From NCBI RefSeq assembly GCF_026151205.1, contig NC_087080.1, positions 147,312 through 197,311 on the forward strand: a stretch of DNA of 50,000 nt, read 5' to 3'. The position numbers were made by a program, and so were the translations under genes. This document shows positions 4,459 to 46,067 of this stretch, in pieces. Source of the stretch: Bolinopsis microptera. Taxonomy: Eukaryota; Ctenophora; Tentaculata; Lobata; Bolinopsidae. The notes beneath the pieces were generated by a model. The model did no database searches, had not been told where the DNA came from, and was given only the letters and a program-made list of their open reading frames with translations. Every line of letters starts with the position of its first letter. Position 1 is the first letter of the stretch.

Positions 4459-4460
4459 AG
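4445..4460 (+). other. Probable 3' splice site before the XKR-like coding exon
   Basis: A T-rich stretch ending in TACATTTCAG at 4,451-4,460 is a good 3' splice site, 24 nt before the first in-frame ATG at 4,485. The open frame extends a little further left only through a GTG and meets a TAA at 4,425-4,427. The exon therefore probably begins at 4,461, with either a short 5' leader or an in-frame link to an unseen upstream exon. Confidence 0.65.
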
Positions 4461-4484
4461 TCGAAGATAAGAACAGTCTGGTAC

Positions 4485-11406: not shown

Positions 11407-11409
11407 CAG

Positions 11410-12699
11410 GAAAAATTCCTCCGGGAGAATCAAAGTGGTTTTAGACAGAATCGCTCATGTATTGACCAGGTTTATTCACTCCGCTGTATTATACACCAAT
11501 GCATTGAGTATAATATCCCTCTGTATATTAATTTTGTTGATTTCAAAGCAGCTTTTGATTCAATTGACAGGCAGTTCATTTGGAGAAGTATGCAGCACTA
11601 CGGCTTACCTGACAAGTACATTAGAATTATGAAGGCGTTCTTCACTCACACAGTTAGTGCTGTTAGGGTCAATGGAGAGGTCACAGGTTGGTTTGATGTC
11701 AACTCGGGTACTGGGCAAGGTGATATACAGGGACCACCAGTCTTCAACTTTTGTTTGAATTTTTCGGCATACCTTATGGAACTGAACAAGGTCATTAGCA
11801 AAGGGGCTTTATTACAGCTGCCAGCCCCCGGGGTAGAAGAGAAACATCTTTTGGACACTGATTACGCTGATGACATGGCCATGTTAGATAACTCAAAAGA
11901 GGGGCTGCAGGAAACCACTGACCTTCTCTGCAAATACAGTGCCTATGCGGGTCTGAAGATTAATGCTGGCAAAACACAGAGCATGGTTGTCAGCAAAAGT
12001 GCATCGCAGAGGCCGTATTCTAAAGACGACACTATGGACATCAATGTGGAAGGTCTCCCAATACAGCAGGTCAGCAATTTCACTTACTTGGGTGCAATCA
12101 TCAGTGCGAATGGAACAATTGACAAAGAACTGTCAGCTCGAATTCAAAAGGCCTCTGGGGCATTCTATCAGCTCAGCAGTATATGGTACAGTCGCAACAT
12201 CAAAACTCCAACTAAAATCAGGATTTACAAAGCGGCTGTTCTCACTATACTGCTTTATGGAAGTGAGGTATGGAATACCACACAGACACAGATGAAAAGA
12301 TTTGAGGTGTTCCAACATAGATGTCTGAGGAGAATCCTGAAAATAAAATGGTTTTATCATGTATCTAATGCTGATGTACTTAAGCGGGCTAACATCGCCC
12401 CTGTTGATACTTTCGTACGAGCAGCTAGACTCCGATGGTTTGGCCATGTGGTGAGGATGCCAGAAGAAAGAATACCCAACTATCTTCTGCACTGGATCCC
12501 AAAGCATGGTAAAAGGTCAAGAGGTAGACCTCGGAAAAACTGGTTGTCATGTGTCCGGGAGGATGCAGCAATCTTCACAGGTGTCGATAACATCACGATA
12601 GAAGATGCAGAACAACAGGCTACAGACAGGGTTCACTGGAGAGGTCTAATACACCGGAGAAAGGAGTTACTATGTGGTGCAGGCCACTCCAACGACTAG
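11410..12699 (+). pseudogene. Reverse transcriptase, 5'-truncated but open
   Basis: About 430 codons stay open from GluLysPheLeu (11,410) to TAG (12,697-12,699). Visible RT motifs are the LRENQSGFRQNRSCIDQ block, motif A with its Asp in INFVDFKAAFDS (about 11,530-11,565), motif B as GTGQGDIQGPPVF (from 11,707, where most relatives have QG-x-x-LSP), and motif C as YADD (11,863-11,874). Then come the thumb-like TYLGAIISANG stretch and a C-terminal basic region, FGHVVRMP then GKRSRGRPRKNW, typical of RTE-type elements. All catalytic aspartates remain, so the copy is young or under little decay. No credible ATG starts the domain, so it is dead as an autonomous element. It could be read only if spliced or fused to upstream sequence. 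Confidence 0.88.
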
Positions 12700-16326: not shown

Positions 16327-16453
16327 CTAAACCTTTTGTTTTTTATTTTTCTTAACGAGCGGCTGAATATTCTCCTTCTCAGACAGAACAGGTTTTGTGG
16401 AGGAATGTTGAGTGTGTCGTGTAACAGCTGATACTCCGTCAACAAACTTCGTC
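16327..16453 (-). CDS. SMC2: SMC2 terminal coding exon
   Basis: 127 nt. It starts after ATATCAG (acceptor AG at 16,455-16,454), completes the split Arg codon and reads [15 protein letters not shown], matching the family's conserved TKFVDG-S-V tail, then a basic end and TAG at 16,329-16,327. Confidence 0.94.
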
Positions 16454-18217
16454 CTGATATGATGAGGGTCTTATTATAACCAATCAGAGCACAGTATTCA
16501 CACCACGTGACACAAAGTAACCAATCAGAGCACAGTACTCACACCACGTGACACAAACTAACCAATCAGAGCACAGTATTCACACCACGTGACACAAACT
16601 AACCAATCAGAGCACAGTATTCACACCACGTGACACAAACGAACCAATCAGAGCACAGTATTCACACCACGTGACACAAACCAACCAATCAGAGCACAGT
16701 ATTCACACCACGTGACACAAAGTAACCAATCAGAGCACAGTACTCACACCACGTGACACAAACTAACCAATCAGAGCACAGTACTCACATCATGTGACAC
16801 AAAGTAACCAATCAGAGCACAGTACTCACACCACGTGACACAAACTAACCAATCAGAGCACAGTACTCACACCACGTGACACAAAGTAACCAATCAGAGC
16901 ACAGTATTCACACCACGTGACACAAAGTAACCAATCAGGCACAGTATTCACACCACGTGACACAAAGTAACCAATCAGAGCCCAGTACTCACATCATGTG
17001 ACACAAAGTAACCAATCAGAGCACAGTACTCACACCACGTGACACAAAGTAACCAATCAGAGCACAGTACTCACACCACGTGACAAAAATTAACCAATCA
17101 GAACACAGTAATTACACCACGTGACGCAAACTAACCAACCAGAGCACAGTACTCACACCACGTGACACAAACTAACCAATCAGAGCACAGTATTCACACC
17201 ACGTGGCACAAACTAACCAACCAGAGCACAGTACTCACACCACGTGACACAAACTAACCAATCAGAGCACAGTATTCACACCACGTGGCACAAACTAACC
17301 AATCAGAGCACAGTACTCACACCACGTGACACAAAGTAACCAATCAGAGCACAGTACTCACACCACGTGACACAAACTAACCAATCAGAGCCCAGTATTC
17401 ACACCACGTGACACAAAGTAACCAATCAGAGCACAGTATTCACACCACGTGACACAAAGTAACCAATCAGAGCACAGTACTCACATCACGTGACACAAAG
17501 TAACCAATCAGAGCACAGTACTCACACCACGTGACACAAAGTAACCAATCAGAGCACAGTATTCACATCACGTGACACAAAGTAACCAATCAGAGCACAG
17601 TACTCACACCACGTGACACAAACCAACCAATCACAATGTAAATATCCAATCTACCTGAAGAGAACATTAGCATTCTGGAACATGCCATCTTTGAGGGAGA
17701 CCACGATGAATTGAGAATGTTTGAAGTGAGCCCTCAACATCTGTCCGATGTTCTGAGTGTGGGACAAGTCTAGCGCTGCGTCCACCTGGGGAGAAACACG
17801 TGTCAGTATTCCATAACAGAGGAGTATAATTAGTATAATTAGTATAATTAGTATAATAAGTATAATTAATATAATTAGTATAATAAGTATAATTACCTCG
17901 TCCAGAATGTATAGAGGAGCGGGTTTGAAGAGAAGAAGAGATAAGATAAGAGAGAGAGCCACTAAAGATCTCTGTCCACCGCTCAGTTCGGTTAGTGACT
18001 CTTTCCATACCTCACCGAACCCAACCTGCAATTATAAACTATTAAAGTAAGGTAGTATAGGTTTACAAAGTAACCTGCAATTATAAACTATTAAAGTAAG
18101 GTAGTATAGGTTTACAAAGTAAGATATGTTTACTTAGCAACAATAATAACCTATATAAAGATATAAACATTAGCACTTACCTTGACTTCTAGACCATCAG
18201 TAACAGGTCTCCCCTCC
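16327..18217 (-). CDS. SMC2: Condensin subunit SMC2, C-terminal end (partial, spliced)
   Basis: Joining 18,217-18,181, 18,025-17,897, 17,785-17,655 and 16,453-16,327 gives a continuous reading frame to a TAG stop, with GT-AG introns (phases 0, 0 and 2). SMC2 is one of the two SMC ATPases of the condensin complexes that compact mitotic chromosomes. Visible are the ABC signature LSGGQRSL, the Walker B segment LYILDEVDAALD interrupted by an intron after DE, and the switch region [10 protein letters not shown]. The combination [21 protein letters not shown] is specific to SMC2 rather than SMC1, 3 or 4. The tail ends [16 protein letters not shown], lysine-rich. The roughly 1,000 upstream residues (N-terminal head, coiled coils, hinge) are not in this window: upstream there is only the 61-bp array made from this exon's own end. 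The gene may continue beyond an assembly break or really be truncated here. Confidence 0.95.
16478..17632. repeat. 41-bp CCAAT + CACGTG array filling the last SMC2 intron
   Basis: About 28 units of AACCAATCAGAGCACAGTAT + TCACACCACGTGACACAAACT occupy nearly all of the 1,201-bp intron (17,654-16,454). Nearly every unit keeps CCAATCAG (the NF-Y type CCAAT box) and CACGTGAC (a USF/MITF-type E-box). Variation falls mostly at other positions: TATTC/TACTC, and AGT or ACT at the unit joint. A few units have CATGTG or CCAACC. A regulatory role is inferred. Confidence 0.97.
17655..17785 (-). CDS. SMC2: SMC2 exon with D-loop and switch motif
   Basis: 131 nt. Acceptor CTCCCCAG, then [17 protein letters not shown] through [18 protein letters not shown] and the first two bases of an Arg codon. 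Donor CTTCAG|GTAGAT. Confidence 0.96.
17822..17895. repeat. AGTATAATT minisatellite in a 111-bp SMC2 intron
   Basis: About eight units of AGTATAATT/AGTATAATA make up most of the intron 17,786-17,896 up to the donor site, leaving a short unique stretch with the 3' splice site. Confidence 0.9.
17897..18025 (-). CDS. SMC2: SMC2 exon with ABC signature and Walker B
   Basis: 129 nt, exactly 43 codons: [20 protein letters not shown] to [10 protein letters not shown]. Acceptor AATTGCAG|GTTGGG and donor GACGAG|GTAATT; phase 0 on both sides. Confidence 0.97.
18026..18122. repeat. 49-bp tandem duplication carrying the 3' splice site
   Basis: The sequence CCTGCAATTATAAACTATTA to TTTACAAAGTAA occurs twice, with acceptor AG/exon start at 18,026 and a decoy copy at 18,075. 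On the minus strand each copy contains TTTATAATTGCAG|GTT, but only the 18,026 acceptor leads into SMC2 coding sequence. Confidence 0.93.
18181..18217 (-). CDS. SMC2: SMC2 exon 3' end (partial), first unit of the 61-bp array
   Basis: Reads [12 protein letters not shown] and then the donor AAG|GTAAGT. In SMC2 proteins this segment directly precedes the V-G-x-W-KE-L-ELSGGQ block, as it does across this intron. This copy has GGTCTAGAA where the array consensus has GGTTTAGAA, so it is slightly distinct from the amplified units. Sequence 5' of GGAGGGG is already intron-derived repeat, so the rest of the exon is absent here. Confidence 0.85.
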
Positions 18218-19289
18218 AAAGATATAAACATTAGCACTTACCTTGACTTCTAAACCATCAGTAACAGGTCTCCCCTCCAAAGATATAAACATTAGCACTT
18301 ACCTTGACTTCTAAACCATCAGTAACAGGACTCCCCTCCAAAGATATAAACATTAGCGCTTACCTTGACTTCTAAACCATCAGTAACAGGTCTCCCCTCC
18401 AAAGATATAAACATTAGCACTTACCTTGACTTCCAAACCATCAGTAACAGGTCCCCCCTCCAAAGATATAAACATTAGCACTTACCTTGACTTCTAAACC
18501 ATCAGTAACAGGTCTCCCCTCCAAAGATATAAACATTAGCACTTACCTTGACTTCTAAACCATCAGTAACAGGTCTCCCCTCCAAAGATATAAACATTAG
18601 CACTTACCTTGACTTCTAAACCATCAGTAACAGGTCTCCCCTCCAAAGATATAAACATTAGCACTTACCTTGACTTCTAAACCATCAGTAACAGGTCCCC
18701 CTCCAAAGATATAAACATTAGCACTTACCTTGACTTTAAAACATTAGCACTTACCTTGACTTCTAAACCATCAGTAACAGGTCCCCCCTCCAAAGATATA
18801 AACATTAGCACTTACCTTGACTTCTAAACCATCAGTAACAGGTCTCCCCTCCAAAGATATAAACATTAGCACTTACCTTGACTTCTAAACCATCAGTAAC
18901 AGGTCTCCCCTCCAAAGATATAAACATTAGCACTTACCTTGACTTCTAAACCATCAGTAACAGGTCTCCCCTCCAAAGATATAAACATTAGCACTTACCT
19001 TGACTTCTAAACCATCAGTAACAGGTCTCCCCTCCAAAGATATAAACATTAGCACTTACCTTGACTTCTAAACCATCAGTAACAGGTCTCCCCTCCAAAG
19101 ATATAAACATTAGCACTTACCTTGACTTCTAAACCATCAGTAACAGGTCTCCCCTCCAAAGATATAAACATTAGCACTTACCTTGACTTCTAAACCATCA
19201 GTAACAGGTCTCCCCTCCAAAGATATAAACATTAGCACTTACCTTGACTTCTAAACCATCAGTAACAGGTCTCCCCTCCAAAGATATAA

Positions 19290-24109
<4,820 letters not shown>

Positions 24110-27100
24110 TCTCCCCTCCAAAGATATAAACATTAGCACTTACCTTGACTTCTAAACCATCAGTAACAGGTCTCCCCTCCAAAGATATAAACATTAGCAC
24201 TTACCTTGACTTCTAAACCATCAGTAACAGGTCTCCCCTCCAAAGATATAAACATTAGCACTTACCTTGACTTCTAAACCATCAGTAACAGGTCTCCCCT
24301 CCAAAGATATAAACATTAGCACTTACTTGACTTCTAAACCATCAGTAACAGGTCTCCCCTCCAAAGCTATAAACATTAGCACTTACCTTGACTTCTAAAC
24401 CATCAGTAACAGGTCTCCCCTCCAAAGATATAAACATTAGCACTTACCTTGACTTCTAAACCATCAGTAACAGGTCTCCCCTCCAAAGATATAAACATTA
24501 GCACTTACCTTGACTTCTAAACCATCAGTAACAGGTCTCCCCTCCAAAGATATAAACATTAGCACTTACCTTGACTTCTAAACCATCAGTAACAGTCTCC
24601 CCTCCAAAGATATAAACATTAGCACTTACCTTGACTTCTAAACCATCAGTAACAGGTCTCCCCTCCAAAGAAATAATCATTAGCACTTACCTTGACTTCT
24701 AAACATCCCCGTAACAGGTCTCCCCTCCAAAGATATAAACATTAGCACTTACCTTGACTTCTAACCATCAGTAACAGGTCCCCTCAAAGATATAAACATA
24801 GCACTTTACCTTGACTTCTAAACCATCAGTAACAGGTCCCCCCAAAGATATAAACTTAGCACTTACCTTGACTTCTTAAAACCCTCAGTACAGGTCTCCC
24901 CCCCAAAAATATAAACATTAGCACTTACCTTGACTTCTAAACCATAAGTAAAGGTCTCCCATCCAAAGATATAAACATTTGCACTTACCTTGACTTCTTT
25001 AAAAACCCTCAGTAACAGGTCTCCCCTCCAAAGATATAAACATTAGCACTTACCTTGACTTCTAAACCATCAGTAACAGGTCTCCCCTCCCAAAGATATA
25101 AACATTGCACTTACCTTGACTTCTAAACCCTCAGTAACAGGTCTCCCCTCCAAGATATAAACATTAGCACTTACCTTGACTTCTAAACCATCAGTAACAG
25201 GTCTCCCCTCCAAAGATATAAACATTAGCACTTACCTTGACTTCTAAACCATCAGTAAAGGTCTCCCCCTCCAAAGATATAAACATTAGCACTTACCTTG
25301 ACTTCTAAACCATCAGTAACAGGTCTCCCCTCCAAAGATATAAACATTAGCACTTACTTGACTTCTAAAACATCAGTAACAGGTCTCCCCTCCAAAGATA
25401 TAAACATTAGCACTTACCTTGACTTCTAAACCATCAGTAACAGGTCTCCCCTCCAAAGATATAAACATTAGCACTTACCTTGACTTCTAACCCATCAGTA
25501 ACAGGTCTCCCCTCCAAAGATATAAACATTAGCACTTACCTTGACTTCTAAACCTCAGTAACAGGTCTCCCCTCCAAAGATATAAACATTAGCACTTACC
25601 TTGACTTCTAAACCATCAGTAACAGGTCTCCCCTCCAAAGATATAAACATTAGCACTTACCTTGACTTCTAAACCATCAGTAACAGGTCTCCCCTCCAAA
25701 GATATAAACATTAGCACTTACCTTGACTTCTAAACCATCAGTAACAGGTCTCCCCTCCAAAGATATAAACATTAGCACTTACCTTGACTTCTAAACCATC
25801 AGTAACAGGTCTCCCCTCCAAAGATATAAACATTAGCACTTACCTTGACTTCTAAACCATCAGTAACAGGTCTCCCCTCCAAAGATATAAACATTAGCAC
25901 TTACCTTGACTTCTAAACCATCAGTAACAGGTCTCCCCTCCAAAGATATAAACATTAGCACTTACCTTGACTTCTAAACCATCAGTAACAGGTCTCCCCT
26001 TAAAGATATAAACATTAGCACTTACCTTGACTTCTAAACCATCAGTAACAGGTCTCCCCTCCAAAGATATAAACATTAGCACTTACCTTGACTTCTAAAC
26101 CATCAGTAACAGGTCTCCCCTCCAAAGATATAAACATTAGCACTTACCTTGACTTCTAAACCATCAGTAACAGGTCTCCCCTCCAAAGATATAAACATTA
26201 GCACTTACCTTGACTTCTAAACCATCAGTAACAGGTCTCCCCTCCAAAGATATAAACATTAGCACTTACCTTGACTTCTAAACCATCAGTAACAGGTCTC
26301 CCCTCCAAAGATATAAACATTAGCACTTACCTTGACTTCTAAACCATCAGTAACAGGTCTCCCCTCCAAAGATATAAACATTAGCACTTACCTTGACTTC
26401 TAAACCATCAGTAACAGGTCTCCCCTCCAAAGATATAAACATTAGCACTTACCTTGACTTCTAAACCATCAGTAACAGGTCTCCCCTCCAAAGATATAAA
26501 CATTAGCACTTACCTTGACTTCTAAACCATCAGTAACAGGTCTCCCCTCCAAAGATATAAACATTAGCACTTACCTTGACTTCTAAACCATCAGTAACAG
26601 GTCTCCCCTCCAAAGATATAAACATTAGCACTTACCTTGACTTCTAAACCATCAGTAACAGGTCTCCCCTCCAAAGATATAAACATTAGCACTTACCTTG
26701 ACTTCTAAACCATCAGTAACAGGTCTCCCCTCCAAAGATATAAACATTAGCACTTACCTTGACTTCTAAACCATCAGTAAACAGGTCTCCCCTCCAAGAT
26801 ATAAACATTAGCACTTACCTTGACTTCTAAACCATCAGTAACAGGTCTCCCCTCCAAAGCTATAAACATTAGCACTTACCTTGACTTCTAAACCATCAGT
26901 AGCAGGTCTCCCCTCCAAAGATATAAAAGTATAAACATTAGCACTTACCTTGACTTCTAAACCATCAGTAACAGGTCTCCCCTCCAAAGATATAAACATT
27001 AGCACTTACCTTGACTTCTAAACCATCAGTAACAGGTCTCCCCTCCAAAGATATAAACATTAGCACTTACCTTGACTTCTAAACCATCAGTAACAGGTCT

Positions 27101-30100
27101 CCCCTCCAAAGATATAAACATTAGCACTTACCTTGACTTTCTAAACCATCAGTAACAGGTCTCCCCTCCAAAGATATAAACATTAGCACTTACCTTGACT
27201 TCTAAACCATCAGTAACAGGTCTCCCCTCCAAAGATATAAACATTAGCACTTACCTTGACTTCTAAACCATCAGTAACAGGTCTCCCCTCCAAAGATATA
27301 AACATTAGCACTTACCTTGACTTCTAAACCATCAGTAACAGGTCTCCCCTCCAAAGATATAAACATTAGCACTTACCTTGACTTCTAAACCATCAGTAAC
27401 AGGTCTCCCCTCCAAAGATATAAACATTAGCACTTACCTTGACTTCTAAACCATCAGTAACAGGTCTCCCCTCCAAAGATATAAACATTAGCACTTACCT
27501 TGACTTCTAAACCATCAGTAACAGGTCTCCCCTCCAAAGATATAAACATTAGCACTTACCTTGACTTCTAAACCATCAGTAACAGGTCTCCCCTCCAAAG
27601 ATATAAACATTAGCACTTACCTTGACTTCTAAACCATCAGTAACAGGTCTCCCCTCCAAAGATATAAACATTAGCACTTACCTTGACTTCTAAACCATCA
27701 GTAACAGGTCTCCCCTCCAAAGATATAAACATTAGCACTTACCTTGACTTCTAAACCATCAGTAACAGGTCTCCCCTCCAAAGATATAAACATTAGCACT
27801 TACCTTGACTTCTAAACCATCAGTAACAGGTCTCCCCTCCAAAGATATAAACATTAGCACTTACCTTGACTTCTAAACCATCAGTAACAGGTCTCCCTCC
27901 AAAGATATAAACATTAGCACTTACCTTGACTTCTAAACCATCAGTAACAGGTCTCCCCTCCAAAGATATAAACATTAGCACTTACCTTGACTTCTAAACC
28001 ATCAGTAACAGGTCTCCCCTCCAAAGATATAAACATTAGCACTTACCTTGACTTCTAAACCATCAGTAACAGGTCTCCCCTCCAAAGATATAAACATTAG
28101 CACTTACCTTGACTTCTAAACCATCAGTAACAGGTCTCCCCTCCAAAGATATAAACATTAGCACTTACCTTGACTTCTAAACCATCAGTAACAGGTCTCC
28201 CCTCCAAAGATATAAACATTAGCACTTACCTTGACTTCTAAACCATCAGTAACAGGTCTCCCTCCAAAGATATAAACATTAGCACTTACCTTGACTTCTA
28301 AACCATCAGTAACAGGTCTCCCCTCCAAAGATATAAACATTAGCACTTACCTTGACTTCTAAACCATCAGTAACAGGTCTCCCCTCCAAAGATATAAACA
28401 TTAGCACTTACCTTGACTTCTAAACCATCAGTAACAGGTCTCCCCTCCAAAGATATAAACATTAGCACTTACCTTGACTTCTAAACCATCAGTAACAGGT
28501 CTCCCCTCCAAAGATATAAACATTAGCACTTACCTTGACTTCTAAACCATCAGTAACAGGTCTCCCCTCCAAAGATATAAACATTAGCACTTACCTTGAC
28601 TTCTAAACCATCAGTAACAGGTCTCCCCTCCAAAGATATAAACATTAGCACTTACCTTGACTTCTAAACCATCAGTAACAGGTCTCCCCTCCAAAGATAT
28701 AAACATTAGCACTTACCTTGACTTCTAAACCATCAGTAACAGGTCTCCCCTCCAAAGATATAAACATTAGCACTTACCTTGACTTCTAAACCATCAGTAA
28801 CAGGTCTCCCCTCCAAAGATATAAACATTAGCACTTACCTTGACTTCTAAACCATCAGTAACAGGTCTCCCCTCCAAAGATATAAACATTAGCACTTACC
28901 TTGACTTCTAAACCATCAGTAACAGGTCTCCCCTCCAAAGATATAAACATTAGCACTTACCTTGACTTCTAAACCATCAGTAACAGGTCTCCCCTCCAAA
29001 GATATAAACATTAGCACTTACCTTGACTTCTAAACCATCAGTAACAGGTCTCCCCTCCAAAGATATAAACATTAGCACTTACCTTGACTTCTAAACCATC
29101 AGTAACAGGTCTCCCCTCCAAAGATATAAACATTAGCACTTACCTTGACTTCTAAACCATCAGTAACAGGTCTCCCCTCCAAAGATATAAACATTAGCAC
29201 TTACCTTGACTTCTAAACCATCAGTAACAGGTCTCCCCTCCAAAGATATAAACATTAGCACTTACCTTGACTTCTAAACCATCAGTAACAGGTCTCCCCT
29301 CCAAAGATATAAACATTAGCACTTACCTTGACTTCTAAACCATCAGTAACAGGTCTCCCCTCCAAAGATATAAACATTAGCACTTACCTTGACTTCTAAA
29401 CCCATCAGTAACAGGTCTCCCCTCCAAAGATATAAACATTAGCACTTACCCTTGACTTCTAAACCATCAGTAACAGGTCTCCCCCTCCAAAGATATAACA
29501 TTAGCACTTACCCTTGACTTCTAAACCATCAGTAACAGGTCTCCCCTCCAAAGATATAAACATTAGCACTTACCTTGACTTCTAAACCATCAGTAAAGGA
29601 CTCCCCTCCAAGATATAAACATTAGCACTTACCTTGACTTCTAAACCATCAGTAACAGGTCTCCCCTCCAAAGATATAAACATTAGCACTTACCTTGACT
29701 TCTAAACCATCAGTAACAGGTCTCCCCTCAAAGATATAAACATAGCACTTACCTTGACTTCTAAACCATCAGTAACAGGTCTCCCCTCCAAAGATATAAA
29801 CATTAGCACATCCCTTGATTCTAACCAATCAGTAACAGGTCTCCCCTCCAAAGATATAAACATTAGCACTTACCTTGACTTCTAAACATCAGTAACAGGT
29901 CTCCCCTTCCAAAGATATAAACATAGCACTTACCTTGACTTCTAAACCATCAGTAACAGGTCTCCCCTCCAAAGATATAAACATTCGCACTTCCTTGACT
30001 TCTAAACCATCAGTAACAGGTCTCCCCCTCCAAAGATATAAACATTAGCACTTACCTTGACTTCTAAACCATCAGTAACAGGTCTCCCCTCCAAAGATAT

Positions 30101-33100
30101 AAACCTTAGCAACTTACCTTGACTTCTAAACCCATCAGTAAGAGGTCTCCCCTCCAAAGATATAAACATTAGCACTTACCTTGACTTCTAACCATCAGAT
30201 AACAGGTCTCCCCTCCAAAGATATAAACATTAGCACTTACTTGACTTCTAAACCATCAGTAGCAGGTCTCCCCTCCAAAGATATAAAAGTATAAACATTA
30301 GCACTTACCTTGACTTCTAAACCATCGGTAACAGGTCTCCCCTCCAAAGATATAAACATTAGCACTTACCTTGACTTCTAAACCATCAGTAACAGGTCTC
30401 CCCTCCAAAGATATAAACATTAGCACTTACTTGACTTCTAAACCATCAGTAACAGGTCTCCCCTCCAAAGATATAAACATTAGCACTTACCTTGACTTCT
30501 AAACCATCAGTAACAGGTCTCCCCTCCAAAGATATAAACATTAGCACTTACCTTGACTTCTAAACCATCAGTAACAGGTCTCCCCTCCAAAGATATAAAC
30601 ATTAGCACTTACCTTGACTTCTAAACCATCAGTAACAGGTCTCCCCTCCAAAGATATAAACATTAGCACTTACCTTGACTTCTAAACCATCAGTAACAGG
30701 TCTCCCCTCCAAAGATATAAACATTAGCACTTACCTTGACTTCTAAACCATCAGTAACAGGTCTCCCCTCCAAAGATATAAACATTAGCACTTACCTTGA
30801 CTTCTAAACCATCAGTAACAGGTCTCCCCTCCAAAGATATAAACATTAGCACTTACCTTGACTTCTAAACCATCAGTAACAGGTCCTCCCCTCCAAAGAT
30901 ATAAACATTAGCACTTACCTTGACTTCTAAACCATCAGTAACAGGTCTCCCCTCCAAAGATATAAACATTAGCACTTACCTTGACTTCTAAACCATCAGT
31001 AACAGGTCCTCCCCTCCAAAGATATAACATTAGCACTTACCTTGACTTCTAAACCATCAGTAACAGGTCTCCCCTCCAAAGATATAAACATTAGCACTTA
31101 CCTTGACTTCTAACCATCAGTAACAGGTCTCCCCTCCAAAGATATAAACATTAGCACTTACCTTGACTTCTAAACCATCAGTAACAGGTCTCCCTCCAAA
31201 GATATAAACATTAGCACTTACCTTGACTTCTAAACCATCAGTAACAGGTCTCCCCCTCCAAAGATATAAACATTAGCACTTACCTTGACTTCTAAACCAT
31301 CAGTAACAGGTCTCCCCTCCAAAGATATAAACATTAGCACTTACCTTGACTTCTAAACCATCAGTAACAGGTCTCCCCTCCAAAGATATAACATTAGCAC
31401 TTACCTTGACTTCTAAACCATCAGTAACAGGTCTCCCCTCCAAAGATATAAACATTAGCACTTACCTTGACTTCTAAAACCATCAGTAACAGGTCTCCCT
31501 CCAAAGATATAAACATTAGCACTTACCTTGACTTCTAACCCATCAGTAACAGGTCTCCCCTCCAAAGATATAAACATTAGCACTTACCTTGACTTCTAAA
31601 CCATCAGTAACAGGTCTCCCCTCCAAAGATATAAACATTAGCACTTACCTTGACTTCTAAACCATCAGTAACAGGTCTCCCCTCCAAAGATATAAACATT
31701 AGCACTTACCTTGACTTCTAAACCATCAGTAACAGGTCTCCCCTCCAAAGATATAAACATTAGCACTTACCTTGACTTCTAAACCATTAGTAACAGGTCT
31801 CCCTCCAAAGATATAAACATTAGCACTTACCTTGACTTCTAAACCATCAGTAACAGGTCTCCCCTCCAAAGATATAAACATTAGCACTTACCTTGACTTC
31901 TAAACCATCAGTAACAGGTCTCCCCTCCAAAGATATAAACATTAGCACTTACCTTGACTTCTAAACCATCAGTAACAGGTCTCCCCTCCAAAGATATAAA
32001 CATTAGCACTTACCTTGACTTCTAAACCATCAGTAACAGGTCTCCCCTCCAAAGATATAAACATTAGCACTTACCTTGACTTCTAAACCATCAGTAACAG
32101 GTCTCCCCTCCAAAGATATAAACATTAGCACTTACCTTGACTTCTAAACCATCAGTAACAGGTCTCCCCTCCAAAGATATAAACATTAGCACTTACCTTG
32201 ACTTCTAAACCATCAGTAACAGGTCTCCCCTCCAAAGATATAAACATTAGCACTTACCTTGACTTCTAAACCATCAGTAACAGGTCTCCCCTCCAAAGAT
32301 ATAAACATTAGCACTTACCTTGACTTCTAAACCATCAGTAACAGGTCTCCCCTCCAAAGATATAAACATTAGCACTTACCTTGACTTCTAAACCATCAGT
32401 AACAGGTCTCCCCTCCAAAGATATAAACATTAGCACTTACCCTTGACTTCTAAACCATCAGTAACAGGTCTCCCCTCCAAAGATATAAACATTAGCACTT
32501 ACCTTGACTTCTAAACCATCAGTAACAGGTCTCCCCTCCAAAGATATAAACATTAGCACTTACCTTGACTTCTAAACCATCAGTAACAGGTCTCCCCTCC
32601 CAAAGATATAAACATTAGCACTTACCTTGACTTCTAAACCATCAGTAACAGGTCTCCCCTCCAAAGATATAAACATTAGCACTTACCTTGACTTCTAAAC
32701 CATCAGTAACAGGTCTCCCCTCCAAAGATATAAACATTAGCACTTACCTTGACTTCTAAACCATCAGTAACAGGTCTCCCCTCCAACGATATAAACATTA
32801 GCACTTACCTTGACTTCTAAACATCAGTAACAGGTCTCCCCTCCAAAGATATAAACATTAGCACTTACCTTGACTTCCTAAACCATCAGTAACAGGTCTC
32901 CCCTCCAAAGATATAACATTAGCACTTACCTTGACTTCTAAACCATCAGTAACAGGTCTCCCCTCCAAAGATATAAACATTAGCACTTACCTTGACTTCT
33001 AAACCATCAGTAACAGGTCTCCCCTCCAAAGATATAAACATTAGCACTTACCTTGACTTCTAAACCATCAGTAACAGGTCTCCCCTCCAAAGATATAACA

Positions 33101-34029
33101 TTAGCACTTACCTTGACTTCTAAACCATCAGTAACAGGTCTCCCCTCCAAAGATATAAACATTAGCACTTACCTTGACTTCTAAACCATCAGTAACAGGT
33201 CTCCCCTCCAAAGATATAAACATTAGCACTACCTTGACTTCTAAACCATCAGTAACAGGTCTCCCCTCCAAAGATATAAACATTAGCACATACCTTGACT
33301 TCTAAACCATCAGTAACAGGTCCCCCTCCAAAGATATAACATTAGCACTTACCTTGACTTCTAACCATCAGTAACAGGTCTCCCCTCCAAAGATATAAAC
33401 ATTAGCCCTTACCTTGACTTCTAAACATCAGTAACAGGTCTCCCCTCCAAAGATATAAACATTAGCACTTACCTTGACTCTAAACCATCAGTAACAGGTC
33501 TCCCCCTCCAAAGATATAAACATTAGCACTTACCTTGACTTCTAAACCATCAGTAACAGGTCTCCCCTCAAAGATATAAACATTAGCACTTACCTTGACT
33601 TCTAAACCATCAGTAACAGGTCTCCCCTCCAAAGATATAAACATTAGCACTTACCTTGACTTCTAAACCATCAGTAACAGGTCCCCCTCCAAAGATATAA
33701 ACATTAGCACTTACCTTGACTTCTAAACCATCAGTAACAGGTCTCCCCTCCAAAGATATAAACATTAGCACTTACCTTGACTTCTAAACCATCAGTAACA
33801 GGTCTCCCCTCCAAAGATATAAACATTAGCACTTACTTGACTTCTAAACCATCAGTAACCAGGTCTCCCCCTCCAAAGATATAAACATTAGCACTTACCT
33901 TACTTCTAAACCATCAGTAACAGGTCTCCCCTCCAAAGATATAAACATTAGCACTTACCTTGACTTCTAAACCATCAGTAACAGGTCCTCCCCTCCAAAG
34001 ATATAAACATTAGCACTTATCTTGACTTC

Positions 34030-37000
34030 TAAACACGTAACAGGTCCCCCCAAGATTAAACATTAGCATTACCTTTACTTTTAAACCCTCAGTAACGGTC
34101 CCCCCCAAAAATTAAACTTAGCATTCCTTGACTTTTAACCCCATAAGGTCCCCCCAAAGTTAAACATTACATTACTTTTCTTCTAAACCCTTAAAGGTCC
34201 CCCTCCCAAAATAAAAACATTAGCACTTACCTGCTTTTAACACAGTAAAAGGCTCCCCCCAAATATAAAACATTAGACTTCCTTGATTCAAAACATCTAA
34301 AGGTTCCCTCCAAAAATTAACATTCATTACCTTGATTTTTAACCTCGAAAGGTCCCCCAAAGAAATAAACATGCACTTACCTTTTATTCTAAACCATCAG
34401 TAAAAGGTTCCCCCCCAAAGAAAAACATTAGCACTTTCCCTTTATTTAAAACAGAACAGGTCCCCCCCAAAGTTTAAAAAAATTAACTTTTTGACTTTAA
34501 ACTCATAAAGTTTTCCCCCCCAAAGATATAACATTAGCACTTCCTTGACTTCTAAACCATCAGTACAGAGGTCTCCCCCCAAAGATTAAACATTTAAATT
34601 TCCTTGATTTAAAAATCGAAAGGTTCCCCCCAAAAATATAAACTTGCCTTCCTTGACTTCTAAAAAATCGTAAGGTCTCCCTCCAAAAATATAAAATTAA
34701 TTACCGCTTTAAACCCTCATAACAGGGCTCCCTCCAAAAAATAAACATTACCTTACCTTGCTTCAAAAAAACCCGTAACGGCTCCCCCCCAAAGATTAAA
34801 CAAGCACTTACCCTTTACTTCTAAAACCCTAGTAACAGGTCCCCCCTCCAAAGAAAAAAATTCACTTCCTTTATTCTAAAACCTCAGTAAAAGGCCCCTC
34901 AAAGAAAAACATTAGCATTACCTTTTACTTCAAACCTCAGTAACAGGTTCCCCCCAAAGTATAAAAATTGCACTTACCTTGACTTTAAACCTGTAACAGG
35001 TCTCCTCCCCAAAATTAAACTTTCATTACTTGATTCTAAACCCTCAGTAACGGTTCCCCCCCAAAGATAAAACATTTGACTTACCCTTTCTTCTAAACCA
35101 CAGTAAAGGGGCTCCCTCCCCAAAATATAAACATTTGCACTTCCTTTACTTCTAAACCATCGTAACAGGTCCCCCTCCAAAAATATAAAAATTAGCCTTT
35201 CCTTTACTTAAACCCCAGTAAAAAGGGCCCCCTCCCAAAAATTAAAAATTTGCACTTTCCTTGACTTTTAAACCTCAGTAAAAGGGGCCCCCCCCCAAGA
35301 TATAAACATTACACTTACCCTTATTTTAAACCCTATAAAAGGTCCCCCCCCCAAAGATAAAAACTTAGACTTACGACTTTAAAATCATAACAGGGTTCCC
35401 CCCCAAAGTATAAACATTAGCACTTACCTTGTTCAAACCTCAGTAAAAGGGCTCCCTCCAAAAATATAAACATTGCATACCCCTTTACTTCAAAAACCTC
35501 ATAAAGGGCTCCCTCCCAAAAATTTAAAAATTTGCCTTTCCCTTTACTTTAAACCCTAGTAACGGTTTCCCCCCCAAGATTTTTAAACTTTTGCACTTTC
35601 TTTACTTCTCCATCAGTAAGGTCTCCCCCCCAAGATTAAACATTACCCCAAATTACCTTTACTTTAAACCCCAGTAAAAGGGCTCCCCCCCAAAATATAA
35701 ACCTTAGCATTTCCCTTTACTTCAAAAACCATCAGAAAGGCCCCCTCCCAAAAAAAACTTACACTTACTTGCTTCTAAACCATCAGTAACGGTCCCCCAA
35801 AGATTAAACATTAGCACTTACCCTTTACTTCTAAACCCCCAGTAACATTCCCCCCCCCAAAGATTAAATTTTCATTACTTGACTTTAAACCATCAGTAAA
35901 AGGTTCCCTCCAAAATAAAACATTTGCACTTTCCTTTATCTAAAACCCCAAAAGGTCTCCCCCCCAAAGTAAAACATTTTGCACTTTCCTTGACTTTTAA
36001 AAATCAGAACAGGTCCCCCCCAAGATATTTAAAAAATTAGCATTACCTTGATTTAAACCACAGTAACAGGTCTCCCCCCAAGAAAAAACATTACATTACC
36101 CGACTTTTAAAATCCCTAAAGTTCCCCCCCAAAGAAAAAACATTGAAACCTTTTTCTAAACCCTCAGAACAGGTTCCCCCCCAAAGATATAAACTTACAC
36201 TTACCTTTTCTTTAAACCTCAGAACAGGTCCCCCTCAAGATAAAAACATTAGCACTTACCTTGACTTCTAAACCATCAAAACAGGTCCCCTCCCAAAAAA
36301 TAAAAATTACACTTTCTTGACTTTTAAACCCCAGTAAAGTCTCCCCTCAAAAAAAACATTAGACTTTTTGATTCTAACCCTCAGTAACAGGTCCCCCCCC
36401 AAAAATAAAAAATTTGACTTATTGCTTTAAACCCTCAGTAAAAGGGCCCCCTCCAAAAATATAAAAATTGCACTTTCCTTGATTTTTAAACCAAGTAAAA
36501 GGTCTCCCCCAAAGATTTAAAAAAGCATTACTTTACTTTAAACCTCGTAACAGGTTCCCCCCCAAAGTATAAAAATTTTCATTTTCTTTACTTCTAAACC
36601 TCAGTAAAGGTTCCCCCCCAAAGAAAATAAACATTTGCACTTTCCTTGATTCTAAACCTCGTAAAAGGTCCCTAAAAATTAAAAATTTTGACTTACCTTT
36701 CTTTTTAACCCCAAATAAAAAGGTTCCCCCCCCAAAAATATAAATTTGCATTACTTACTTTAACCATCAGTAACGGCCCCCCCAAAAATATAAAATTACA
36801 CTTTCCTTGCTTCTAAACCCTCGTAAAGGTCCCCCTCCCAAAAATATAAAATTAGCACTTACCCTTATTTAAACCATCGAAAAGGGTCCCCCCCCAAAAA
36901 ATATAAACATTCACTTACTTACTTTAAACCCTCGTAAAGGTCTCCCTCAAAGATAAAACTTAGCACAAACCCTTGAAATTTTAAACCATGTAACAGGTCT

Positions 37001-37770
37001 CCCCCCCCAGAATAAAATTAGCCTTTTCCTTGACTTTTTAAAACCCTCAGTAACGGGCTCCCCCCCCAAAGATATAAAAATTTGCACTTCCTTGACTTCT
37101 AAACCATCAGTAAAAAGGTCTCCCCTCCAAAGATATTAAAAAAATTTGCCTTACCTTGACTTCTAAAAACCCTTAGTTAAAAGGTCCCCCCTCCAAAGAT
37201 ATAAACATTTTGCACTTACCTTGACTTCTAAACATCAGTAACAGGTCCCCCTCCAAAGATATAAACATTAGCAATTACCTTGCTTCTAAACCATCAGTAA
37301 CAGGTTCCCCTCCCAAAAATATAAACATTAGCACTTACCTTGACTTCTAAACCATCAGTAACAGGTCTCTCCCACCAAAGATATAAACATTAGCACTTAC
37401 CTTGACTTCTAAACCATCAGTAACGGTCTCCCCTCCAAAAATAAACATTAGCACTTACCTTGACTTCTAAACCCTCAGTAACAGGTCTCCCCTCCAAAGT
37501 ATAAACATTAGCCCCTTACCTTTATTCTAAACCATCAGTAACAGGTCTCCCCCTCCCCAAAAATATAAACATTAGCACTTACTTGACTTCAAACCATCAG
37601 TAACGGTCTCCCCTCCAAAGATATAATACATTTGCACTTACCTTGACTTTTAACCATCAGTAACAGGTCTCCCTCCAAAGATATAAAAATTTAGCACTTA
37701 CCTTGACTTCTAAACCTCAGTAAAGGTCTCCTCCAAAAATTTTAAAAAATTAGCACTTTTCCTTGACTTT
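34030..37770. other. Second degraded part of the 61-bp array, to its right edge
   Basis: From about 34,030 the array shows the same homopolymer-type noise as 19.3-22.6 kb. It partly recovers at about 37.05-37.7 kb and stops in mid-unit after CCTTGACTTT at 37,770. No SMC2 coding sequence precedes the last unit on the minus strand. Confidence 0.8.
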
Positions 37771-38309
37771 TTCGAATTTTGGAGACGAGTCTTGAAACAC
37801 CCTGTATAACTTTTAAGCTTAGCAGATTGTTTACCTTTGCACCCGATTTACTGATTTTTAGTCAATTTGTTGCTCGTAAAAAAAAGAAGGGATGAGTCAT
37901 AACGCATTAGTAGCACAGAAAATTAATGAATGCAATTATACACTGGATGATATGTAGTATTAATATTAATATAATAACATTTAAAATATGCTAAAACCCT
38001 ACCCTAAGGCCCTACTTGATGTCCATGTGATCGAAACAGTTGTTGGCCCGATATCTCGTCCAGTAGGGTGATTCGGAATCAGCGTTAAAAAAGACATCGA
38101 TCCAAGCTTGGTTTCAACTGTCGGCCAGCCTTTTTAGAAAGAATCTCGAAGTTCGAGTATAAAGTGAAAAAATTGTGCAAAAATTGATTATGTAATAAGT
38201 GGAACGAGTCCCAACGCCTAACCCCATAGATTTAATAAATATTAAATAAATAAACATAAATTGGCAGGGTTGAAATCTGTATTCAATGCGGTTAGTTGCG
38301 TATCTTAAA
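37771..38309. other. Non-coding sequence right of the array
   Basis: Unrelated to SMC2 on either strand. It contains TTGAAACACCCTGTATAA at about 37,792, similar to sequences found at ends of small transposons in various invertebrates; this is a weak resemblance from memory. No gene is supported. Confidence 0.5.
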
Positions 38310-38955
38310 CAATAATCTTAGAATGTGTGTTTTCTGTGTGTGTGTAATTTCCCGAACTCTTATTCAAGAAAACGGGGCTTGTTTTTTCGGTATAGTGCCG
38401 TATAGTGCCGTATAGTGCCGTATAGAGCCGACTAAACTTTAACTATGAGGAAGCCCCCCATGGTTAGTGCCGACTAAACGTAACTATGAGAAGCCAAATG
38501 GGGTTAAGGGTTTTTTATGAATCGGCCGGTGGTAAGTGGTTGTAATGATGGTTTTGTAACACAAATGGTCCAAATGCTTTGAAGCAGTATGGTAAAGAGT
38601 TACGGATCTCACTCACTTCTCTCCCATAACTGGTAATATGTATCTGCATCATAATTGTGTTTTTAAAACCCAAATAGATGCAGCCTACAAATACAGGTTA
38701 ATTTCTACAACGATTTAGAATAAAAATGGAAAGCGGTTCAAGACGGGAGTGATGGGTGTAATAGTCCGGTGTTCGGACCTATGACATGGAATTTGGTGCC
38801 TAATAATGACTTAATTAACACGAGAAAAACCTGATTATGAGATATTGTTAAAGATACATGGAGGGTGTCTCTGGCATCTGGAGGGCACTCCGAATAGAAT
38901 TGCCCCCTAATGCGGGTTTTAAACTCAGCGGTAATTAAATCCTACCCTTTTTAAG
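38310..38955. repeat. Second copy of the 9.3-kb dispersed element
   Basis: Collinear with 9,375-9,905 through AGAATGTGTGTTT, TTTTTTCGGTATAGTGCCG, CGGTGGTAAGTGGTT, GATGGTTTTGTA and GAGGGCACTCCGAATAGAAT, with insertions between blocks. The flanking 42-bp direct repeats of the 9.3-kb copy are not seen here. A 10-bp tandem TATAGTGCCG (four units, about 38,391-38,430) has expanded in this copy only. Confidence 0.78.
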
Positions 38956-40539
38956 CTGCGGCAGTGGAAAATCCCGGGCCGTAAGCCGGGTTACACTAGT
39001 ATAAGTTATACTGCAGCTCATAAGATCCTTTAAATAGTTGACTATTGCCTCTTACCCTATAGTTTGTAGTCACAAGGATTACCATCCTTATAAGCACAAG
39101 ACAGCCATCACATGATGAAATGCCATTATTCAAACCTAGGGAGCGAATAACGATATTTTAACGTAAAGGTTACTGAAAGTTATTACATTATTATTTATAA
39201 TGTTGTGGAGCTAGAGGTGTGGTTACTAGGTTTTCAGTCCGCCCTCTTCTCTCCAATGTAACAATTATTATGATCAACTAGTTAGGTGGGTGAACGGCTA
39301 TCTAGCGCTAGTACTACATGAATAATACACGTGATTGCCCCATATAAGGAGTGATTAAGTTTGATCGCAAAAACGTGCTACTCAGCAGGAGTACTATCCT
39401 TATTTCGATCTAAAATAGCTTGTTATTTTTTGTTTTTAGATTTGAGTGTCTATTATACTGTCCCTTGATGGTGCGGTAGAATATTAAAACTAGATTAAGA
39501 TCCATTTGTTTTAGACAAATAAGGTTTGTCTATTCTCGCACATAACCATCCTTTTTTGTCGGAAAATCATTATTCTCGGGATAAATTTTTTCACATTTTA
39601 CGAAAGACTTATTTAAAAATAATACTTGAGAAAATTTAGACAGACTTGTTAGCTCCCTCTATACTTGACACACTCTGCAACCCCCTTTTGAACGGAGACT
39701 GTTACCGACATTAATAACTTTTTATTTGTCTCCATTGCTCCCTTATAAAACATCTCTCATGGCTAGCGCCATCTAGCGTTAATAGCGCCATCTACGTTCG
39801 ATAGCACTATATAGTGTGGATAGATAGACGGCTATATATCGGAATTTCACTATCGAGTAAAGAACTGGGTGACTGAAAGGGTCTTAACTCTTAAGTGGCT
39901 CAAATTTGGCTTACGTAATAGTATTATTATGTGAACGATCCCTAATGAGTATCCAGCATATGTCTGCAATTTGTAGTACAATGAGGAAGTTAAATTCATT
40001 TTAATGTCCGTACACGCAATGTCCGGTAAAATAACGTCAGATAAGTTTATCGCAGTTACTCAGAATGTAAATACATATTATTTTGGTAAAACCATTTTAA
40101 TTTCACTCAGTAATAGGATAGTTAAGCAGCCCATGGAAATGTCCGACGAAAAGGAACTAACCATGAAATCAGGAGTTATCACATACCTGGTAATTAATAC
40201 TAGTGACTAGTAGCAAGTAGTAAGCAGTAATCTTCATTATTAAGTAACATAGCTAGTATCGGTGTTGCTGGCCTGTCATCTGCCTTTGTAGTAGAATTAT
40301 TCTGTGTAGCAATCAAATTCAACCCTGTTAATTTCATATCATGTCAAAGGTTGTTAATTGATAATACACCCAATTGACTAATACAAATTTACAGGTGAGG
40401 CGGTTCGCTTAATGGATATTGCAGGAGAAGTTTATAGTAAGTGAAACAAAAACATTTGTTAAATTCAAAAATTCATAAACACATAAATTACATACATTAA
40501 AAAGCAAAAAAAAATATATATATAAAAGATATATGGGTT
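38956..40539. other. Non-coding sequence, no gene supported
   Basis: AT-rich DNA. An open frame at 40,004-40,210 has no recognisable family. A short GC-containing cluster at about 39,760-39,805 has the motif TAGCGCCATCTA twice, once as CTAGCGCCATCTAGCG. Nothing else stands out. Confidence 0.5.
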
Positions 40540-40561
40540 GGGGGGGGGGGGGGGGTGGGGG
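40540..40561. repeat. G-run (G16-T-G5)
   Basis: A homopolymer of 16 G, a T and 5 more G, preceded by a short AT dinucleotide run. Homopolymer length is unreliable in this kind of assembly. Confidence 0.9.
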
Positions 40562-41559
40562 TTATTTAAAAATCTACACATATTTAACATAGCCATTGGA
40601 AAAATCAGGCTTAAATCCCTTATTAATATATATTACGTATTTTTAAATTTAATACATTGTATCAAACGAAAATTGATCTCTGTGTGGGTATAAAAGTAAA
40701 GTGTTGTTAGCTTGAGGTGAAACTGAGTTGTTAGTGTTGTAGGTTAGTTGCCAGGTAACGGCTAGTGTTTGTTAGGGTTAGGTTGCCAGTAATCGGCTAG
40801 TGCTGTTAGGTGTTGCCAGGTAACGGCTAGTGTTTGTTCTTTGATTGAGCGTGCTTGAATGAAACTCAGCTACTCAGAGTGGAGCTTGAAATGAGTGGCA
40901 GCGTGAGACGTGAAAACTCTCCCATAACCTTTAAAAAACTTTTAACAAAATTAAAAACAATAACATTAAATCTTCACTATCAGAATGTAGCTTGTGTTGG
41001 ATGTTTCCCTATTTCTTGTATTTCTCTGAAAGACCGTATCTCAACCTCTCTGCAAATGTGGAATTCACCGCTATCATCAGTTTTAGATACTCCCCTGTTA
41101 CCATTGGTAACCACATTCCTCCTCTTTCTCATACGCCTTCCTAAGTCGGGGCATTCAGCTGTATCCCGGCAACCTGGACATAATATGGGGATTCACTTCA
41201 GTGGTGGCGAGGTAGCGTAGAAATAAATTTTAGAAACTAGTACAATTTATTTCTGGGAGCGGGGTACTGTCTGTCGTAAGTCATTTTTTAATGGATTGTA
41301 ATAGTTAAACTTGCTGTTACATGTCGGGAGTGTTGCCGTGGTATGACGTAATGTTGATATTACTGGTTTTACTATTGTGATGGGGTGTTCTAGGATGTGC
41401 AGCTGATGAGCCGGGCTGTGAGGTCTCCTCTCTCTCTGTATGGGGGATGTCGGCTAGATCATATTTAGTACATAGGCGTAGGGGGTGTGAGAGCGCTCCT
41501 CAACACGTTCGTTGACTTTTCTCCGCAAGTATTGGCAGACTTTGTTGCCGACAAATGAT
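40562..41559. other. Non-coding sequence with scattered GCCAGGTAACGGCTAGTG copies
   Basis: Near 40,745-40,835 the motif TTGCCAGGTAACGGCTAGTG and variants occur three times; it resembles the core of the 26-bp array at 43.3-46.0 kb in reverse complement. An open frame of 121 codons at 40,855-41,220 (+) begins with a true ATG but has no recognisable domain or splice context, and is left unassigned. Confidence 0.5.
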
Positions 41560-41890
41560 CCCAGGGGGGTGGGGGGGGGTTGTGGAGGGGTGTGTGTATT
41601 ATTTTAGTATGTGGTGAGTAGAGAGGGGGTGTGTTGTGAGTGGGGGGGGGGGGGTTGGTGGGGGTATGTTGGAGTGGGCGTCTGTGTGGTAGTGGTTGTG
41701 GTGTGGAGTGGGTGAGAGGGACTGGGTGTTGTGTGGGGTGGGGGGGTGTGGTGGGGTATGGTTACCATGAGACATGGGGTAGGTGGACTGAGTAATGGTC
41801 GGGGGGGGGTAAGTGGGGGGTGTGGGAGGGGAGGTGGGAGGGGATGGCGGTGGGTGGGGGTCTTGGGGACATGGGGTGGTGGTGTGGAGC
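41560..41890. repeat. Strongly G-skewed low-complexity tract (GGGGTGTGG-type)
   Basis: The plus strand is almost only G and T with many runs of 4 to 12 G, such as GAGTGGGGGGGGGGGG. The minus strand gives Pro/Thr/His-rich frames by composition alone. The tract has strong G-quadruplex potential. No gene. Confidence 0.85.
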
Positions 41891-43309
41891 AAGCTGTCAC
41901 CTACTCCAGCAACCTTGAAACCCCCAGCTTGCCAATAGGACCACCCACCACACAACCCATTACAGACCCAGCAACAGGAACCCGCGGCAAACTTTGCCCT
42001 CCGACCTTTATAATCCCAACAGTCCGAGAGTAGTGGGTATGAGACGGCGTTTCTTTAGCTATCGCCAGGCGGGGGGTGTCTGTGGGGGGTCGAACATACA
42101 TGTATGGAGTGTCTCCGTCTGCTGGGGTCGCGTCATGAGATGTCACTCTAGTTACGGAGTGATCCTTGTGAACGTTGACTAACTTTGACAAACTCGGCCA
42201 TTATCTCTTAATGCAGACGTGTACAACCTGATTATCGTTCTTTACTGGTTTATTTATCAATTCTGCGGTGTTAGTACACACGTTTAGTATGCTTCACTAA
42301 CCGTCTGGTCAGGTTGCTATGTTCAGAGCCGGTGTCAGTTGATACTGTGGGACAGAGCGCAGTCAGTTGTCTAGGGGGGGGGACTAAGGGTACGCGTGTT
42401 GGGAGTGCAGTTTGTTTGGCTAGGGGGGGTACGGGGTCGGGAGTCCAGTTGCTAGGTACCAGTTCAGTATCTGAGGCGTTGTACGGTTATTTTGACAGGT
42501 GGTGGCTAGGTTACGGTTAGTTGCTAGGTAACGGGTAGTGATAAGGTGGTTGCTAGGTAAGGGTCAGTTTGCTAGGTTACGGTTTTTGTTGACAGGTGGT
42601 TTGCTAGGTAACCGTTATTGACTGGTAGTTGCTAGGTAAGGTAGTTCCTGCTAGCGGTTTTATTGTTCTAACCTGGATATCCATGTTGCAGCTGGTTCCA
42701 ACTCTGTGCTGTAGCCTCTAACCGCTCCCAGGGTCATCCTCAAGTACTCTTAGTTTTCTTGTAAGACATCAACTCAGTGTGTTCCTCTCCTGAGAGTTAC
42801 CAGGTTACCATAGTTAGTAACCGTGGTAACCATTGGTTACCACTGTTGCTAGTCACTGTAAAGTGCAGTGTGTTAGTACTTTGGAATTTATAAAGGATGC
42901 ACCTGAGCCTAGTACTCACCTGTTTTTGAGAAAGTGTGGTATTGTTACTGTTCATCGTGAGAGAGGTGATCTCATACTGGTGCTAGGTAAACTGGTGATT
43001 GTGTAAGTGGAAACAGATTGTGTGTCTAGGTCTGGACTGATCTATCTTATCCAGATCATCGTCTAACTAAAAATTCGAGTGTTTACTCTGGTTTTTACAG
43101 ATGTGGTAGTAGTTTTCCTTCAAATAATTAAGTAACACCACGTGACCTACACCACGTACAAAGCTATAGCCTGAACAAACTTGACAATTTCGTCGTAAGC
43201 TGACTGTCTGAGCGGGTCGGCTGTTGATTTAAACTTGTCCAATCATAGTAAAAAAACTCTTTGGTTCGTCCCAACCATCTAGCCCTTAAGAGCAGTTCTT
43301 CAAGTTCCT
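41891..43309. other. Non-coding sequence with many GTTGCTAGGTAAC-like motifs
   Basis: Around 42,500-42,640 TTGCTAGGTAACGG and close variants occur five to six times in loose spacing. At 42,797-42,850 several GTTACC/GGTAAC half sites cluster (for example GTAACCGTGGTAACC). These resemble the unit of the following 26-bp array and the RFX X-box pattern. Paired boxes, CACCACGTGACC and CACCACGTACA, lie near 43,137. No gene is supported. Confidence 0.55.
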
Positions 43310-45977: not shown

Positions 45978-46067
45978 ATAATCATTTTACTACTCATAAT
46001 CATTTTACTACTCATAATCATTTTACTACTCATAATCATTTTACTACTCATAATCATTTTACTACTT
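45978..46067. repeat. 18-bp tandem array, unit ATAATCATTTTACTACTC
   Basis: Five near-perfect units directly following the 26-bp array. Non-coding. Confidence 0.95.

Follow-up and report, generated by a model that had tools for sequence, protein, structure and literature searches.

The stretch of DNA analysed here, designated below as the window, comprises 50,000 nucleotides (C9:147312-197311) of a genome of 264.65 Mb assembled in 232 contigs and probably belonging to a ctenophore. It contains a tandem array of 61-bp units derived from the boundary between exon 7 and intron 7 of SMC2, the gene for a condensin subunit that is involved in chromosome condensing and is essential elsewhere. With a probability of about 0.8, the array represents a "mirage" minisatellite, i.e. 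a tandem duplication of an exon-intron boundary that was later expanded and is removed together with the intron.

The 61-bp array

Tandem Repeats Finder (TRF) delineates the 61-bp array at window positions 18157-37769. Read on the minus strand, the unit—CTTTGGAGGGGAGACC...GAAGTCAAG|GTAAGTGCTAATGTTTATAT—covers the final part of an SMC2 exon, a donor and the first part of an intron, its source being the end of exon 7 and the start of intron 7; the tandem unit crosses the exon-intron boundary, the array extends about 40 nt into exon 7, and the donor AAG|GTAAGT is consensus-like. The origin from an SMC2 exon-intron boundary, as well as the start of the first exon downstream of the array at position 18,025, had already been proposed in a sequence-only reading of the window, and both are borne out. 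The unit is divided here into 41 + 20 nt; the division into 37 + 24 nt is equivalent, since the 4 nt CTTT, a microhomology common to both ends of the unit, are shared.

The window copy is the worst of the seven array copies described below. Starting with a match of 98.5% to its own consensus, it is clean, except for one short unit, at 18157-19285 (minus strand), where 18 exact AAG|GTAAGT are present, and then passes into decayed consensus at 19286-22563 (minus strand), the match dropping to about 65%, its lowest value, around 21.5-22.5 kb, mainly through deletions and homopolymer runs. A run of 1,544 consecutive A (22564-24107), read as an assembly artefact, separates this part from a second clean one at 24108-33988 (minus strand), with 148 exact AAG|GTAAGT and 94-100% match per 500-base bin. 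The last part, 33989-37769 (minus strand), is again decayed (79-90% match) and stops short of exon 7. Per kb, the two decayed zones contain 36.6 and 29.6 homopolymer runs of at least five bases and the two clean ones 2.7 and 1.2. The exact AAGGTAAGT is found 18 + 148 = 166 times in the clean zones and 14 + 12 times in the decayed ones, giving 192 in the entire array. The decay and the A run are probably assembly errors in a long repeat, a failing consensus making such gradients; we know of no evolutionary process that produces them. The figure of about 300 units given by the sequence-only reading was therefore inflated by the two decayed stretches and the perfect A run, and it is unsafe; 166 exact donors are present in the clean parts.

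At the far edge of the array, where the other six copies all run on into exon 7, the window copy passes into 37770-46042, and no match to the other fetched SMC2 copies was found for this segment among the listed matches of at least 150 bases. It should be mentioned that G runs occur in the segment and that its 26-bp repeat (43311-45978) has 77% match and 11% indels, which suggests that the poor consensus continues there.

Copies of the array in the genome

A genome search for the unit, a follow-up suggested along with the sequence-only reading, revealed six further array loci, all of them at SMC2 loci. Three are located on the same contig as the window, i.e. C9_1 at C9:106683-108879 (36 units), C9_3 at C9:234365-235281 (15 units) and C9_4 at C9:284787-286376 (26 units, opposite strand), two on contig C2, i.e. 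C2a at C2:10947021-10949708 (44 units) and C2b at C2:10992734-10997880 (84 units), and one on contig C13 at C13:10790793-10792442 (27 units, or 27.1, with 27 exact AAG|GTAAGT). These six arrays exhibit a TRF match of 97-98% and pass directly into the remaining exon sequence (...GTTAAACTGCAGA|CTTTGGAGGGG). A genome-wide satellite was rejected as a reading, since a 35-nt core has 339 exact matches in the genome and all of them (339/339) lie inside the seven SMC2 arrays.

The unit number is unstable, ranging from 15 to 84 among paralogous loci, the comparison being one of loci and not of alleles of one locus. With an intact or near-intact GTAAGT and at most six differences as calling criteria, 245 units were recovered from the clean arrays, which have roughly 250, and 123 from the middle part of the window array, which has about 160. 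At C13, 14 of the 26 called units are identical to the consensus. Both shared and private unit variants exist, the 50 private variant types including window units, which are possibly consensus errors. The copy C9_3 ends in garbage resembling that of the window array.

The full-length SMC2 gene and its partial copies

The gene on C13 (C13:10776535-10798361) is the only full-length SMC2 found. Its 10 exons, placed by hand from the frame and the known protein, are separated by introns that are all of the GT-AG type and encode 1,200 codons uninterrupted by a stop; the protein aligns to the SMC2 of PDB 9f5w_A at residues 1 to 1182, and a genome search with exon 3 led to one place, this gene. Intron 7 spans 14.3 kb versus 132-1187 bp for the other eight introns. 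Tandem repeats fill 86, 46, 70, 87, 62 and 95% of introns 3, 4, 5, 6, 8 and 9, respectively, 24% of intron 7, 5% of intron 1 and 0% of intron 2, just the two arrays of intron 7 extending into exons.

The other SMC2 copies are read as recent partial duplicates. C9_4 and C2a contain exons 4-10, C9_1 part of exons 6-10, and C2b and C9_3 part of exons 7-10. C9_3 and C2b both show a single-base deletion plus a stop, exon 5 of C9_4 contains an insertion of 31 nt, and exon 7 carries inserts in C9_1 as well as in C2a; these indels were taken from multiple alignments, so that a 31-nt deletion in C2a merely mirrors the insertion in C9_4. Some of the 5' breaks of the copies, e.g. that of C9_3, may be assembly faults. 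As a separate observation, the sequence preceding intron 3 in C2a and C9_4 looks like an exon, is common to both copies and does not correspond to exon 3 of SMC2, which, judged by eye, suggests a fusion to another gene.

The window copy retains exons 8-10 only and is thus ruled out as a functional SMC2. The sequence-only reading placed the donors inside or next to an essential gene; an array does sit at the donor of intron 7 of the intact C13 gene, with 27 donors, whereas a position inside a complete SMC2 is not confirmed for the window copy. The features next to the array in the window copy are all on the minus strand, i.e. the single-copy rest of intron 7 (18123-18156), the duplicated intron 7 acceptor (18023-18122; 49-bp unit twice, intron end TTGCAG|GTT), exon 8 (17897-18025), a 9-bp repeat at the donor side of intron 8 (17823-17895), exon 9 (17655-17785), a 41-bp minisatellite of 28 units in intron 9 (16477-17633) and exon 10, the last coding exon (16327-16453), with 99% identity to the C13 gene.

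Splice sites of intron 7

When the C13 gene is spliced in silico, full-length SMC2 is obtained from just one of the 27 donors, the first, i.e. outermost one. Each of the remaining 26 shifts the frame and runs into a stop once 1,086 codons have been read; exon 8, which contains the LSGGQ motif, is then not reached in frame. Similarly, the exon-proximal acceptor alone works among the three tried at C13. The acceptor of intron 7 has been separately duplicated in three of the seven copies, the tandem unit being a 49-mer present twice in the window and a 43-mer of which C2a has five and C13 two. A single acceptor is seen in C9_1, C9_3, C9_4 and C2b, and the 61-bp donor array is present in all seven.

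Exon definition predicts the choice of the outer, exon-proximal splice sites. As far as the reading frame indicates, either these outer sites would be chosen or the gene would fail. The array appears to be tolerated, not used.

Origin of the array

The array probably started when 61 bp spanning the junction of exon 7 and intron 7 were duplicated in tandem, as read from the junction sequence, where CTTT is present at either breakpoint. The exon breakpoint is AGA-CTTT-GGAGG and the intron breakpoint TATAT-CTTT-ATATAG, the unit starting at one CTTT and ending before the other; a unit bounded by two such 4-nt matches bears the signature of microhomology-mediated tandem duplication. The array would then have expanded by slippage or unequal exchange, a later expansion being suggested by unit numbers that differ at every locus and by the unit variants, both shared and private. 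Apart from the full gene on C13, array-bearing partial copies of SMC2 occupy six places on C9 and C2. Finally, the outermost donor would be joined to the exon-proximal acceptor and the array would leave with the intron; it would be tolerated because the mRNA is unchanged, the inner donors being passive decoys without a selected function.

Several observations speak against this scenario. The use of the outermost donor is deduced from the reading frame. The differences of the paralogues from the C13 gene are mostly at silent sites, the silent:replacement numbers being 36:10 in C9_1, 6:1 in the window, 27:11 in C9_3, 49:12 in C9_4, 59:15 in C2a and 28:9 in C2b, a silent excess that is odd for dead fragments. 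Lastly, the donor nonamer has accumulated 6 of 120 substitutions versus 17.7 expected by its length (binomial P 0.0007), and this low change could hint at constraint. It should be noted, however, that 9 of the 61 nine-base windows of the unit are as low as the donor nonamer and that repeated variants are not independent events; selection on the nonamer was rejected as not separable from chance and homogenisation.

A function in splicing is improbable. The array would in that case be a device whose strong donors recruit the U1 small nuclear ribonucleoprotein, either blocking premature polyadenylation in the long intron 7 or tuning the SMC2 output via decoy donors. The C13 array of 27.1 units with its 27 exact donors, the donor positions varying less than average and the 14.3 kb of intron 7, compared with at most 1187 bp for the other introns, all fit such a device, but the copy number is erratic among the loci (15-84), the change is low elsewhere in the unit, too, the units look recently homogenised, as the 14 consensus-identical ones at C13 illustrate, and tandem repeats fill six other SMC2 introns without entering exons. 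No sign of U1 titration or telescripting, consequences considered in the sequence-only reading, came out of the present sequence-based analysis.

Just as improbable is an ongoing remodelling of the intron, with the array as a step to new introns or exons and the inner units sometimes used as exons. Duplication at both ends of intron 7 would be in line with this, and so would the mirage model of intron gain put forward for amphioxus globins (PMC3087553) and the novel introns considered possible from human tandem repeats at exon-intron boundaries (PMC2812944). Every inner donor of the C13 gene, however, shifts the frame and brings the stop described above.

The least likely alternative, an assembly artefact accounting for most of the array or for all of it, could draw on the decayed zones and the A run in the window, on the similar garbage at the C9_3 break and on the presumed source assembly having been made with wtdbg, TGS-Gapcloser and pilon (PMC10232365, where PacBio continuous long reads, HiFi and Iso-Seq are the library types named for the species set), but it is rejected for the array as a whole, as the arrays of the six other loci, which are spread over three contigs of 16-23 Mb, are clean and have variants specific to their locus.

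Minisatellite introns

In addition to the mirage-like array, the C13 gene possesses introns (3, 5 and 6) consisting largely of a 21-bp repeat, GTAACTATGGTAACTAGTAGT. Intron 5 (C13:10794606-10794737) has TCTAACTACACCCAGGTA on both sides, the shared flanking word being 19-20 nt long, and intron 6 (C13:10793903-10794036) has AGGTACGTCATGATA on both sides (15 nt). At the corresponding sites of C2a (C2:10951252 and 10951824) each word occurs once and uninterrupted, so that exons 5, 6 and 7 form one continuous exon in this copy. With an AG|GT inside, the duplicated word offers both a donor and an acceptor. The two introns are candidates for recent intron gains, introner-like but of a minisatellite type. 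Loss of both introns from C2a via cDNA is another conceivable source of the empty sites, though one that would leave the flanking duplications unaccounted for.

No flanking duplication of the intron 5/6 type was found at intron 3 of the C13 gene. Exon 7 of both C2a and C9_1 is interrupted by the 21-bp repeat, with shared words of 15 and 25 nt. An exact 27-mer of the repeat occurs 1,002 times in the genome, and at C7:662700-662760 (L042) and C12:3785430-3785480 (L045) the repeat is positioned at the donor of an exon that looks coding by eye, the exon end being repeated after it (shared words of 9 and 8 nt). Cases of the 21-bp repeat forming introns or adjoining donors so far comprise the three SMC2 introns and these two donor-site cases, the latter recognised by eye only.

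The shared words were compared in 13 rows, which are not independent: intron 5 is included twice and intron 6 three times, the two exon 7 inserts are possibly one event, and L042, L043, L044 and L045 were selected by a pattern demanding AG|GTAAC or nearly so. The rows do not include L041, which is an array of another kind, or L046, which hardly differs from L043. Words of at least 9 nt are shared in 9 of the 13 rows and words of 5-8 nt in the other four (C9_4 exon 5, C13 intron 3, L045 and L043); the null for these words drew its flanks from a repeat-rich locus, which fattened its tail. Separately, L041 (C1:23270285-23270925) is an array of 68-bp units with CAG|GTAACYATGG in the unit, the motif occurring ten times; it is possibly a second donor array.

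Taken together, the genome may make and reshape its introns by minisatellites, both by 21-bp insertions with long target duplications supplying the splice sites and by junction arrays of tens to more than 100 donors read correctly by position alone, although the odds of this general view are put at somewhat less than even.

Other features of the window

Window positions 1-876 cover a (TCC)188 tract with its flank, copies of which (95-98%) are found at C9:113046, C9:130737, C9:139569 and C2:10999391. The first of these is situated just past the break of the SMC2 copy C9_1 and the last where C2b is cut off; the repeat is a candidate for either a dispersed element or a recurrent join. On the plus strand, an open frame of 1,344 codons (4428-8459) has a match to Pfam TPR_CCP1_N below the cut-off, the segment 5179-8476 being 96% similar to C9:209916-213209, and a reverse transcriptase frame (Pfam RVT_1) occupies 11368-12696, with a 98% identical copy at C9:255207-256529.

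Comparison with known systems

The sequence-only reading had considered a satellite born from a splice junction to be undescribed, which fails because such structures are known from amphioxus. Minisatellite-like tandem duplications of exon-intron boundaries were named mirages in amphioxus Adh3 and globin genes (PMC3087553), those in PGBD5 and troponin C (TnC) being added by another report (PMC3902484), and reverse transcription PCR on the amphioxus mirages suggests regular splicing (PMC3087553, PMC3902484). The SMC2 array has the anatomy of a mirage, i.e. a boundary-spanning unit, both intron ends affected, AG/GT signals and an unstable unit number. With the mirages of Adh3, BflGb6/BflGb9, PGBD5 and TnC it shares the unit spanning the splice junction, the involvement of both 5' and 3' boundaries, the AG/GT signals kept in many units, the varying unit number and edge units that often differ from a homogenised interior. 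Somatic instability is a further trait of the Adh3 mirage. The unit length in amphioxus is 10-72 bp for Adh3 and 150-160 bp for the globins in comparison with 61 bp here, and two BflGb6 haplotypes have 6 and 3 units, while the clean SMC2 arrays have 15-84 and the clean parts of the window 166 exact donors. Further differences concern the phylum (probably Ctenophora), the gene, the seven loci and the fact that one intron is duplicated at both of its ends. Beyond the published mirages considered here, the phylum—if Ctenophora, as is probable—the SMC2 gene, the unit number and the duplication of both intron ends are new, and the minisatellite-insertion introns may be newer than the junction array. 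Among the results of literature searches on ctenophore minisatellites and introns, ctenophore intron gain, and introners with tandem repeats, no ctenophore mirage or minisatellite introner turned up.

Human internal tandem repeats at the exon-intron edges of recently duplicated genes in segmental duplications (PMC2812944) resemble the SMC2 copies; they have, however, units of 30 bp on average, repeated four times, and their variation can alter splicing. The 61-bp array does not belong to the introners. The 21-bp introns share with introners, which a survey of animals and land plants detected in just two groups, both of them animals (PMC9860276), the insertion into coding sequence, the target duplication and the GT-AG ends, but known introners are transposon-like, some families having target duplications of 3-9 bp (PMC9860276), whereas a tandem minisatellite and 15-25 nt in clear cases are seen in SMC2.

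If the interpretation given here is true, mirages extend beyond amphioxus, probably to ctenophores, and into a condensin gene, with an array far larger than the reported ones considered here. Having 27 strong, nearly identical donors, the outermost alone being in frame, the C13 gene would offer a natural test of donor choice by the spliceosome, and with the minisatellite-insertion introns at hand, both the birth and the remodelling of introns by tandem repeats would become directly testable.

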